Positions 126 to 7,376 of a stretch of DNA of 45,023 nucleotides are shown here, piece after piece. The stretch is from Clostridia bacterium. GTDB lineage: Bacteria > Bacillota > Clostridia > Oscillospirales > Acutalibacteraceae. The position numbers and the translations under genes are program-made. The stretch lies in NCBI GenBank assembly GCA_017452785.1, contig JAFTLT010000002.1, positions 1-45,023 of the forward strand, given 5' to 3'. The notes beneath the pieces are model-generated. The model saw only the letters and a program-made list of their open reading frames with translations, searched no databases and had not been told where the DNA came from. Within the stretch, counting starts at the first letter, position 1. Each line of letters begins with the position of its first letter.

Positions 126-140
126 CGTTAACAAAAAGAA

Positions 141-172
141 AATCTCTCATGTGACACAGCACACGAGAGATT
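141..172 (-). terminator. terminator of the ubiquitin gene
   Basis: AATCTCTC (141-148) pairs with GAGAGATT (165-172). On the minus strand the stem is followed by a T-rich tract (TTCTTTTTG), and a TTTTTT run on the other side makes it potentially bidirectional. It lies 21 bp beyond the ubiquitin stop codon and makes that gene monocistronic. Confidence 0.75.
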
Positions 173-192
173 TTTTCACCTCAATACTATTT

Positions 193-618
193 TCAGCAAG
201 CACAGCACTTAACTTCGCTCTGTGTGGCAAGCGAGGCAATTAAGCAAACGAGCTTTATAAGCCATGAAAACACATTGTCAACGTGACAAATGCAATCACA
301 GGTTTCTTCTGCATCTGCCTTTTGAAGAACTAAATGAAGTATGCTTTCCTTCTGAATATTATAATCAGAAAGTGTTTTTCCTTCTTCGAGCTGCTTGCCG
401 GCAAAAATCAGGCGTTGATTATCAGGAGCAATACCCTCTTTTTCCTGAATTTTTGCTTTTATGGCATCAATAGAATCATTAGGTTCAACTTCAAGAGTAA
501 TAGTCTTACCCTCAAGATTCTTTACAAATATCTGCATAGCAGAAGCAGACATTGCAAACATTCCTATGGCAATAACAAGAACAAGCAACAGACTGATTAT
601 TTTTTTGAACTTTTTCAT
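193..618 (-). CDS. secreted ubiquitin with cysteine-rich C-terminal tail
   Basis: The 141-aa product has three parts. Residues 1-27 form a classical signal peptide (KKFKK, hydrophobic core, cleavage after Ala-Ser-Ala). Residues 28-98 are a ubiquitin fold, identical to human ubiquitin at 58 of 71 aligned positions. Residues 99-141 are a tail beginning QKADAEET, with CDCICH at 107-112, a hydrophobic stretch at about 116-131 and CCAC at the very end. Cleavage would leave ubiquitin Met1 as the mature N-terminus. K6, K11, K27, K29, K33, K48 and K63 and the L8/I44/H68/V70 patch are all kept. The C-terminal LRLRGG needed for E1 activation is absent. The start was placed at Met14 of the longer frame because AAAGGAGGAGATATT precedes that ATG. 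It has its own promoter and terminator, and codon use matches the neighbours. Bacterial secreted ubiquitin is known from Bacteroides fragilis (BfUbb). The role here is unknown; mimicry of or interference with host ubiquitin is an inference. Confidence 0.93.
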
Positions 619-647
619 AATATCTCCTCCTTTGATTTGGTAATTAA

Positions 648-677
648 ATTTTATCATATGCGATAAGAAAATGTCAA
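648..677 (-). promoter_or_regulatory. SigA-type promoter of the ubiquitin gene
   Basis: The -35 TTGACA (672-677) is a perfect consensus, with an 18-bp spacer and -10 TAAAAT (648-653). It lies about 30 bp upstream of the start codon, just before the ribosome binding site. Confidence 0.75.
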
Positions 678-3662: not shown

Positions 3663-5309
3663 TTAGATTCTTTCAAAGGGGTCTTTTTCACCAAGAATAA
3701 TTCTTACAAAATTGTCGATAGCATCAACAATCTTTTTGAAAAGGTTAGCAATTGAAACCTTGATTGAATTCATAAAGTCATTTTCAATCTGACCCATGTT
3801 TGTGTTGGTTACATCGTTGAGCATATCCTTAAGGAAGCTCTTCATTGTCAGCTCACCCATAACAAAATTATCATAGAAGCTCTTGATAGTTGTCATTTCG
3901 TCTGCAGTGAGAGTGTCACCTGCTGCTTTATTAAAGTTTATCCAAATGTTTTCAAGCACGATTTCATTCTCAGTGCGTCTGAAAATTTCACTGTTGCTGA
4001 TAACACCGTCTTTATTGATGTCGATTTCTTCGTCAGGTGCTTTATACATGCGGTTAATATCAAGATAGCAAAGCACCATAAGGAAAAGCTCATCGTGGTC
4101 AACTGCACTTGCAAACTTTGTTGCAGGCAGAGTGCCAAATGCAAGATTATCATATAATGCACTGCCGTTTATTTTATTCATAACACTGTCAACTGAGTCT
4201 GAAATGAAGTTGAATGCACCTGTTACTGTTGAAAGCTCTTCTTCAGTATACTGGTCACCGACCTGAGCATATCTGACTGAGAAAAGTGCTCTGAAGGCAT
4301 CTTTATATGTGTTTGAATATTCCTTTGCAAATGCCCATACTACATTGAGAATGTATGTAAGAGGTGAAGAGAAGAACTCTGAGAACATATCTGTGAGAAG
4401 TCTTCTGCCCACATAGTAGCCCTCAGTCTTTTCACCGGTGAGAAGTGTGTCTGTGTTAACACCAAAAGCAGCCATAAGAGGTATAAAGTTCATGCCTGAC
4501 TGTCTGCACCAGTTGCTGTCAATAATGCTGCCGAGACCTGAAAGCTCAACAATCTTGCCAAAGAAGGTGTAAGCATCCATGCTTACATTATCGTCGATAG
4601 GTCTGTAGCCATCGGGAAGAAGGATGAAGTGAGGGTTAATAAGTGTGCCGATAAAGTTTGTGATAGCAACGATGTTCTCATTTGTATAGAATCTGCCGCC
4701 ACCCCAATAATTGCTGATAACTCTCTTGAGATAGAGGTTTGTGTTGGCTCTTACCAGAGAAATTTCACCCTTACCAAGCAGGAAGAAGTAGTTATAATGG
4801 TTTACCTTCTGACCGACTGTAACCTTAACCTCTGAGATTTTTTCAAACAGAGCAACATCGGCTGCCTTGCCTTCATATTCAACTCTGTTGCCAAGCAGAA
4901 CCTCAGCGCACTCGTCATACATCTCTTTAAACTTGCAGGGAAGATTGCCGTGGTCATCAGTGAAAACAAGAGGCACCTTGAAGTTTGACCATGCAAAGGG
5001 TTCTCTGACTTCACCGTAAAGCTCTTCCATGCTCACGCCGAACATAAGGTCACTCTTATTTTCTTCAATGAAGCTGTCAAAATCAGTGATATTACCTGTT
5101 TTAGCAACTTCATCAACACTTGAATAACCTATCTTATTAATGCTGTCAGCAAACTCTGTGTTGATTTCATTGATGATGGGGTCTATTACCTTTGCAACAC
5201 ATTCGGGACGTGTGTCATAATAATCATCATCTTCTTCAGCAAAGCTCATAACACCAAAGCATGAAAATGCAAGTGAAAGAGCAAGTAACAAACTTAAAAG
5301 CTTTTTCAT
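3663..5309 (-). CDS. secreted protein of unknown function with an EF-hand-like loop
   Basis: A 548-aa product that I do not recognise. It starts with a signal peptide (KK, leucine-rich core, cleavage near SFA|EEDDDYYD). The mature part is acidic and mostly helical-looking, with no membrane segment. At residues 430-441 there is a 12-residue loop with Asp, Asn, Asp-Gly, Ile and Glu at EF-hand positions 1, 3, 5-6, 8 and 12, resembling half of a dockerin or a single EF-hand; calcium binding is an inference. The last 35 or so residues (IANLFKKIVDAIDNFVRIIL) could form an amphipathic helix. It is monocistronic with its own promoter and terminator, and AAAGGAG lies 11 bp before the ATG. Alternatives include a surface adhesin or lipid-binding protein; nothing decides between them. 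Confidence 0.75.
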   Translation of the reverse strand: MKKLLSLLLALSLAFSCFGVMSFAEEDDDYYDTRPECVAKVIDPIINEINTEFADSINKIGYSSVDEVAKTGNITDFDSFIEENKSDLMFGVSMEELYGEVREPFAWSNFKVPLVFTDDHGNLPCKFKEMYDECAEVLLGNRVEYEGKAADVALFEKISEVKVTVGQKVNHYNYFFLLGKGEISLVRANTNLYLKRVISNYWGGGRFYTNENIVAITNFIGTLINPHFILLPDGYRPIDDNVSMDAYTFFGKIVELSGLGSIIDSNWCRQSGMNFIPLMAAFGVNTDTLLTGEKTEGYYVGRRLLTDMFSEFFSSPLTYILNVVWAFAKEYSNTYKDAFRALFSVRYAQVGDQYTEEELSTVTGAFNFISDSVDSVMNKINGSALYDNLAFGTLPATKFASAVDHDELFLMVLCYLDINRMYKAPDEEIDINKDGVISNSEIFRRTENEIVLENIWINFNKAAGDTLTADEMTTIKSFYDNFVMGELTMKSFLKDMLNDVTNTNMGQIENDFMNSIKVSIANLFKKIVDAIDNFVRIILGEKDPFERI

Positions 5310-7013: not shown

Positions 7014-7376
7014 TTATGTACCACCGCCGTCAGGTGAAAGTCCGAAGCTCACAGAAAGAGCTTTATCTATTTTATACATCTCAGTCTTATCCAGTATGCC
7101 CATTTTTTCACGAAGACGCTTTTTATCAAGTGTTCTTACCTGCTCAAGCAGCACAACGGAATCCTTTGCAAGGCCGCAGTCATGGGCATTGACCTTAATG
7201 TGTGTTGGCAGGTTTGTCTTAAAGCGCTGACTTGTAATTGCGGCAGCTATAACCGTGGGGCTGAATTTATTGCCCACATCATTCTGCACTATAAGCACAG
7301 GTCTTATGCCTCCTTGCTCAGAGCCCACAACAGGGCTAAGGTCAGCGTAATATATTTCACCGCGTTTAACTGACAT
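7014..7376 (-). CDS. mazF: MazF/PemK-family endoribonuclease toxin
   Basis: A 120-aa protein with the PemK/MazF fold: N-terminal VKRGEIYYADLSPVVGSEQGG and the RPVLIVQND strand. Arg25 and Thr48, the residues implicated in catalysis in the B. subtilis enzyme (EndoA/NdoA), are both present. It would cleave mRNA at short single-stranded sites. B. subtilis mazF follows its antitoxin gene mazE (ndoAI) and alr; here the upstream neighbour is a lipoprotein gene separated by a terminator and 141 bp, with no room for an antitoxin. GGAGG lies 7 bp before the ATG. Function as an RNase is well supported; how it is neutralised is unclear. Confidence 0.92.
   Translation of the reverse strand: MSVKRGEIYYADLSPVVGSEQGGIRPVLIVQNDVGNKFSPTVIAAAITSQRFKTNLPTHIKVNAHDCGLAKDSVVLLEQVRTLDKKRLREKMGILDKTEMYKIDKALSVSFGLSPDGGGT

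Follow-up and report, generated by a model that had tools for sequence, protein, structure and literature searches.

A predicted exported, non-conjugatable ubiquitin with a cysteine-rich C-terminal tail in a Clostridia bacterium

The ubiquitin gene at the start of the stretch analysed here (hereafter the window; 45,023 nucleotides, a complete contig, C7, of a gut Clostridia bacterium's 2.44-Mb genome in 74 contigs that is 89.8% complete) encodes a protein that, judged by its sequence, is exported and non-conjugatable, and that is a variant of the BfUbb type of exported ubiquitin, a previously described kind. Its architecture, comprising a signal peptide, a ubiquitin domain and a linker with a Cys-rich tail, was well supported; its location, target and function are what we infer. 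The features of the locus were as follows.

193 to 618, minus strand: whole coding sequence, a translated open reading frame of 141 residues plus stop
538 to 618, minus strand: signal peptide, residues 1-27, ending SASA, read by eye, with a helix at residues 2-22 in the structure model
322 to 537, minus strand: ubiquitin domain, residues 28-99 (ubiquitin 1-72), matched by PF00240 at 2.2e-28 and modelled as a block with pLDDT of about 86-91
196 to 321, minus strand: linker and Cys-rich tail, residues 100-141, with CxCxCH at 107-112, a predicted helix at 118-131 and a final CxC
624 to 630, minus strand: ribosome-binding site GGAGGAG, 5 bases ahead of the ATG, read from the sequence
648 to 677, minus strand: promoter-like site, TTGACA, spacer of 18, TAAAAT (11/12), found by scan inside the stretch similar to L014, a close relative
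139 to 174, minus strand: terminator-like hairpin of 15 pairs, found by terminator scan

Ubiquitin was the only domain of the protein recognised by Pfam (PF00240, E-value 2.2e-28, 98.3 bits against a curated cut-off of 25.4), and the solved structures among the matches listed were ubiquitin chains. Over ubiquitin residues 1-71, 58 of 71 positions were identical to the human protein, the same count as in the preliminary description of this DNA, and the differences were T7N, T9E, S20N, T22S, E24D, N25A, V26I, D32E, P37A, Q40N, D52E, R54K, and T66I. The seven lysines (K6, K11, K27, K29, K33, K48, and K63) and the patch residues L8, I44, H68, and V70 were all unchanged in the alignment, as had been stated. 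At the end of the domain, R72Q, L73K, R74A, G75D, and G76A replace the human residues, such that positions 72-76 read QKADA and are followed by the tail in place of the free LRLRGG end used by E1, which bears out the earlier view that the protein could not donate its own C-terminus. Cleavage is predicted, by eye, between SASA and MQIFVK, placing ubiquitin Met1 first after the cut, again as described. The structure model, based on 27 aligned sequences (mean pLDDT 76.8, pTM 0.52), had a confident ubiquitin domain with the ubiquitin fold; the linker was poorly defined, and confidence in the helix at 118-131 was low to middling. A Foldseek search of the model in a viral library recovered largely ubiquitins.

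Two relatives encoded the same three-part protein, namely L014 from goat caecum and L015 from roe deer rectum, which were 87% and 76% identical, respectively, across all 141 residues. DNA similarity to L014 extended over approximately 131-676 of the window, from promoter to terminator, at 79%, and that to L015 over approximately 191-660 at 75%. When the translated window was compared with both loci, matches of more than 80 residues were found in the ubiquitin gene alone; the neighbouring open reading frames differed between the three, and no linked partner gene was common to their compared flanks. Neither a target nor a partner or immunity gene came to light. Contamination from a eukaryote or a chimeric end of the contig, raised by the position of the gene only 193 bases from the contig start, is extremely improbable and was rejected: the contig goes on with bacterial housekeeping genes, the signal peptide is bacterial, kin of the tail are present elsewhere in the same genome, and L014 and L015 share DNA with the window and carry the three parts beside other genes. 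The claim of a genuine bacterial gene was therefore sound. Among the other genes of the contig was a PemK/MazF-like gene at 7014-7376 (PF02452, 3.1e-35).

The expression signals and codon use claimed earlier fared less evenly. The strong ribosome-binding site, GGAGGAG, was confirmed 5 bases before the ATG. A promoter-like site and a terminator-like hairpin were present, similarity to L014 spanned both, and a hairpin of like sequence lay 3′ of the ubiquitin gene in L014, but the promoter scan of the window found 2 sites against a shuffle mean of 2.1, that is, no excess, and the terminator scan found 3 against 1.0. These calls therefore rest mainly on position and on DNA similarity to L014. Native-like codon use was only partly right, in that GC3 was 0.317 in the ubiquitin gene (0.25 in the ubiquitin part) versus 0.385-0.412 in five neighbouring genes, its codon use being more AT-rich than theirs.

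Comparison of the ubiquitin part gave dN/dS values of 0.047 against L014 and 0.042 against L015, with dS near saturation (1.2 and 1.8, respectively), which at the sequence level points to purifying selection. Within the genus, PF00240 was patchy, being present in the window's own genome and in 9 of 34 others (a tally of 10 of 60 genomes takes in the own genome), and of 390 other genomes sampled across the class, 4 exceeded the cut-off and 6 had a match at E ≤ 0.001. The nine genus carriers differed from one another: L004 and L005 had ubiquitin inside longer proteins, and L009, L011, and L012 had diverged ubiquitin domains in long proteins of the genus, one of them with LRR_5. Near-identical open reading frames that resemble, by eye, TetR-type regulators directly preceded the ubiquitin gene at L018 (7205-7951) and L019 (1721-2473). 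A search for UCH deubiquitinases gave no match in the own genome, and none in the control genomes either.

The 42 residues that follow ubiquitin position 72 form a linker and a Cys-rich tail with a hydrophobic stretch, and we read this tail, from sequence comparison, as a shortened and diverged form of one that occurs genus-wide. A profile of 14 tails from ubiquitin proteins and their neighbours (A1) gave 15 hits at E ≤ 10 in the own genome, seven of which were below 0.01: the ubiquitin gene itself, three open reading frames with ends of the CxDCGRPVH type, and three of 1529-2335 codons ending CGCxCH...CxCGxxHY. When three ubiquitin tails were aligned with four CGCxCH...CxCGxxHY tails of the own genome (A2), the residues C, C, C, H, I, C, and C were common to all rows. 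At E ≤ 0.01 this alignment had hits in each of 35 genomes of the genus, their number ranging from 1 to 23 (21 in the own genome); those in the three genomes from which the rows stem are there by construction. Of 33 loci fetched by A2, 27 fit CxCxCH...CxC, with five residues after the CxC in 25 of these, none in one (a ubiquitin protein), and ten in one. Beyond the genus, A2 at E ≤ 1e-6 found nothing in 244 other genomes of the class, and A5, a model of 22 canonical tails from which ubiquitin tails were left out, found nothing in 290 at E ≤ 1e-5; in both searches candidates were scored in part in many genomes and at strict cut-offs, such that looser relatives elsewhere are possible.

Scored with A5, the window tail received 20.6 bits, which none of 1000 shuffles reached (best 9.5), and tails of other ubiquitin proteins followed at 11.1 bits for L015 (0/1000 shuffles as high), 11.7 for L014 (1/1000), and 7.0 for L018 (2/1000). 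The tail of L016, a ubiquitin protein of the same group, went unrecognised (1.1 bits, 204/1000); thus, the ubiquitin tails are not all of the CxCxCH kind. The window tail shows the pattern of CxCxCH, hydrophobic stretch and terminal CxC. The local A5 match on it was confined to the CxCxCH half, the FFWKLF-like core and the GxxHY end of the canonical tail were absent in three ubiquitin tails, and an A5 search of the own genome at E ≤ 0.001 did not list the ubiquitin tail. Eight tail peptides searched against Pfam and NCBIfam gave nothing above the curated cut-offs, and five (Pfam) and six (NCBIfam) of the eight had no match at all, the window tail being among these. The relationship of the C-terminus to a genus-wide tail suggests a shared sorting or envelope role, beyond mere free secretion. 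Among tail carriers in the own genome, only L160 has its start in view, which is signal-peptide-like, and the others are presumed to be exported as well.

A second C-terminal type, CxDCGRPVH plus a hydrophobic stretch, closes several genus proteins (L100-L102, L002, and L003), among them some ubiquitin proteins, and is also found on open reading frames beside ubiquitin genes (L018, 8397-11818; L019, 2929-4503). In the window itself, an open reading frame at 3663-5309 has a signal-peptide-like start and no Pfam match, and its end resembles, by eye, the aromatic amphipathic ends of L107, L110, and L112.

The ancestry of the ubiquitin part was pursued in a tree of 84 domains and 72 columns, with human ubiquitin as the sole eukaryotic row, 12 of 81 inner branches with good support, and a bootstrap that had not fully settled. 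The group that took in the window domain (28 rows, 95/82) was made up almost wholly of Clostridia, together with two Bacteroidales and one Fibrobacter, and the titles of its rows point mostly to ruminant gut; human ubiquitin was among the remaining rows. L004 and L005, from the same genus as the window, sat in the other tree group. L014, the nearest whole protein, was not the closest row to the window, a detail that is unsafe with 72 columns. At L028 (7033-8171), two adjacent ubiquitin open reading frames had domains in the two different tree groups. Spread among gut bacteria is thus supported. The horizontal transfer from a eukaryote that had been proposed likely holds for the ultimate source, but the immediate source was probably another gut bacterium, because the nearest relatives in the tree are other gut bacteria.

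With respect to mobile elements, a phage collection gave no match to the window protein, and three plasmid records did, the best being Ruminococcus albus pRUMAL01. On that plasmid of R. albus 7, typed as mobilizable, the gene (L115, 4938-5678; NC_014824.1) is annotated 'ubiquitin family protein' and stands among hypothetical genes and a dockerin gene. Six contigs of a viral collection (L094-L099) encode relatives of the window protein.

Exported ubiquitin appears from these sequences to be no rarity but widespread in bacteria. We scanned genome contigs and kept the best 80 of 188 related places, which held 81 ubiquitin open reading frames; the sample is biased, since it was gathered through words taken from the window protein and ordered by similarity to that protein. 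Under a simple rule that calls for a hydrophobic stretch and for small residues at both -3 and -1 relative to Met1, 76 of the 81 in these best 80 of 188 places had a signal-peptide-like start ending at ubiquitin Met1, and these came from 10 phyla (Bacillota 34, Pseudomonadota 21, Bacteroidota 7, Verrucomicrobiota 6, Cyanobacteriota 2, Planctomycetota 2, and four others with one each). The five that failed were L068, which is still signal-peptide-like, and four possibly incomplete or contaminant sequences, L058, L077, L085, and L088. Many of the records are metagenome-assembled, and named strains with ubiquitin open reading frames included Saccharibacillus sacchari DSM 19268, Paracidovorax valerianellae DSM 16619, Vibrio hepatarius HF70, and Pseudovibrio denitrificans JCM 12308. 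Free-living bacteria share the layout of signal peptide and ubiquitin.

Domains were scanned in 76 of the 81 open reading frames, a set other than the 76 that passed the rule, omitting L031, L064, L077, L088, and the second open reading frame of L028. At E ≤ 0.001, the partners comprised the autotransporter beta-domain (21), SLH (5), outer-membrane barrel (5), T9SS tail (3), IPTL-CTERM (2), and LPXTG family (3, two of which, when viewed singly, fell under the NCBI curated cut-off), and PEP-CTERM was found in one of ten open reading frames scanned singly. Over 78 rows, the human residue was kept at L8 in 85%, at I44 in 91%, at H68 in 95%, and at V70 in 81%, against 5% at G76. Taken together, we put forward, with rather less than even confidence, that in at least 10 phyla a eukaryote-like ubiquitin serves as an extracellular display module, placed behind a signal peptide, stripped of its conjugation end with its recognition surface mostly kept, and joined to the surface system of each lineage, and that the counterpart of such systems in this Clostridia genus is a Cys/His tail not described so far, a candidate new C-terminal sorting or anchoring signal. 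The available excerpts of the literature held no account of exported ubiquitin across phyla, and none of the genus tail, a weak search in that the tail was sought as letter strings only.

Constraint on the I44 patch relative to other surface sites was assessed by permutation, with buried residues assigned from a list and with rows that share ancestry and were all found by similarity to the window protein. It was positive in one form of the test and not in three others. In the gut clade of 28 rows the human residue was kept at 0.929 in the patch versus 0.696 elsewhere on the surface (p 0.02), but the other 55 rows gave 0.870 versus 0.871 (p 0.53), all rows together p 0.10, and the gut clade counted as departures from its own consensus p 0.10.

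As to function, we tentatively favour a non-conjugatable ubiquitin that the cell displays or sheds and that acts as a binding ligand or decoy. Removal of the signal peptide would leave the native Met1 of ubiquitin as the first residue; the tail would hold the protein at the cell envelope or route it through a shared sorting pathway, such that ubiquitin is displayed on the cell or shed; and its I44 surface might bind, non-covalently, ubiquitin-recognising proteins of other gut organisms, for example, epithelium, protozoa or fungi. Without a GG end it would not enter the E1 cascade, and the gene would be an accessory unit moving between gut bacteria. Ubiquitin is probably the working part and no folding aid, since it is the only recognised domain. 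The earlier proposal of a host target, such as ubiquitin-binding proteins or deubiquitinases, did not stand in general form: the same layout occurs in free-living bacteria, for which no animal host could serve as target, and BfUbb acts on bacteria.

The main rival, which we consider possible if somewhat doubtful, is a BfUbb-like antibacterial role in which released or surface-held ubiquitin inhibits related bacteria through an essential protein. In the available text of PMC5705921, the signal peptide of BfUbb is placed as in the window protein and GG is lacking; BfUbb acts against strains of B. fragilis, apparently with no need of an immunity gene, which fits the missing linked partner here. 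The patchy presence in the genus (own genome plus 9/34) and the different neighbours in L014 and L015 also speak for this role; extracellular ubiquitin and an oyster form without GG are, moreover, reported to be antimicrobial in the accessible part of PMC10892293. The tail, however, points to retention or sorting, and spread over unrelated lifestyles is atypical of a weapon against close kin. Ubiquitin is very stable. That stability, and its position at the head of a longer surface protein in many relatives, would suit a fast-folding, protease-resistant N-terminal cap for exported proteins with no specific target, yet the window protein has almost nothing to cap, and strong selection acts on the ubiquitin part, with lysines and I44 patch mostly kept, so we judge this improbable. 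Least probable among functional readings, and in our view quite unlikely, is that ubiquitin is a carrier, with cleavage behind it freeing a Cys-rich hydrophobic peptide. A nematode secreted ubiquitin frees an active 12-residue extension in this manner (PMC5705921, as excerpted), and the window tail has a hydrophobic stretch and several Cys; nevertheless, the protein lacks the RGG site at which ubiquitin-processing enzymes cut, and tails of this kind close many large proteins in the genus, which makes a common tag the likelier role.

BfUbb stood nearly alone as an exported bacterial ubiquitin in the available portions of the literature considered. The relatives identified herein suggest that a non-conjugatable ubiquitin, exported as a surface module, recurs among bacteria, and they offer many natural fusions with which to test the role of extracellular ubiquitin for bacteria. 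The tail found throughout the genus, which has about 20 carriers in one genome, offers a concrete candidate for a C-terminal signal not yet described, and tail and wide spread together make the window ubiquitin one member of a broad class, no single oddity.

The closest precedent, as had been proposed, is BfUbb (ubb) of Bacteroides fragilis, which antagonises strains of its own species (PMC5705921); per its published description, as far as available, it shares with the window protein a signal peptide cut at ubiquitin Met1, the lack of a GG end, and a patchy gene for a eukaryote-like ubiquitin in a gut bacterium. By the same description, it differs in being 63% identical to human ubiquitin (58/71 in the window ubiquitin), in ending with a Cys that replaces GG (PMC3352274, PMC5705921) where the window protein has its 42-residue linker and Cys-rich tail, and in belonging to another phylum. 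Secreted ubiquitin of Globodera rostochiensis likewise comprises a signal sequence, ubiquitin and a short C-terminal extension, unlike the window protein in being a nematode effector in plants with an extension of 12 residues (PMC5705921, in its accessible text). The pRUMAL01 protein of R. albus has, like that of the window, ubiquitin near the N-terminus of an exported protein, with 72.7% identity over query residues 23-99; this and other exported ubiquitins with surface modules have other C-terminal parts, whereas the window protein has a short CxCxCH tail. Pup and other bacterial ubiquitin-like systems involve intracellular proteins with their own enzymes and a much lower similarity to ubiquitin.
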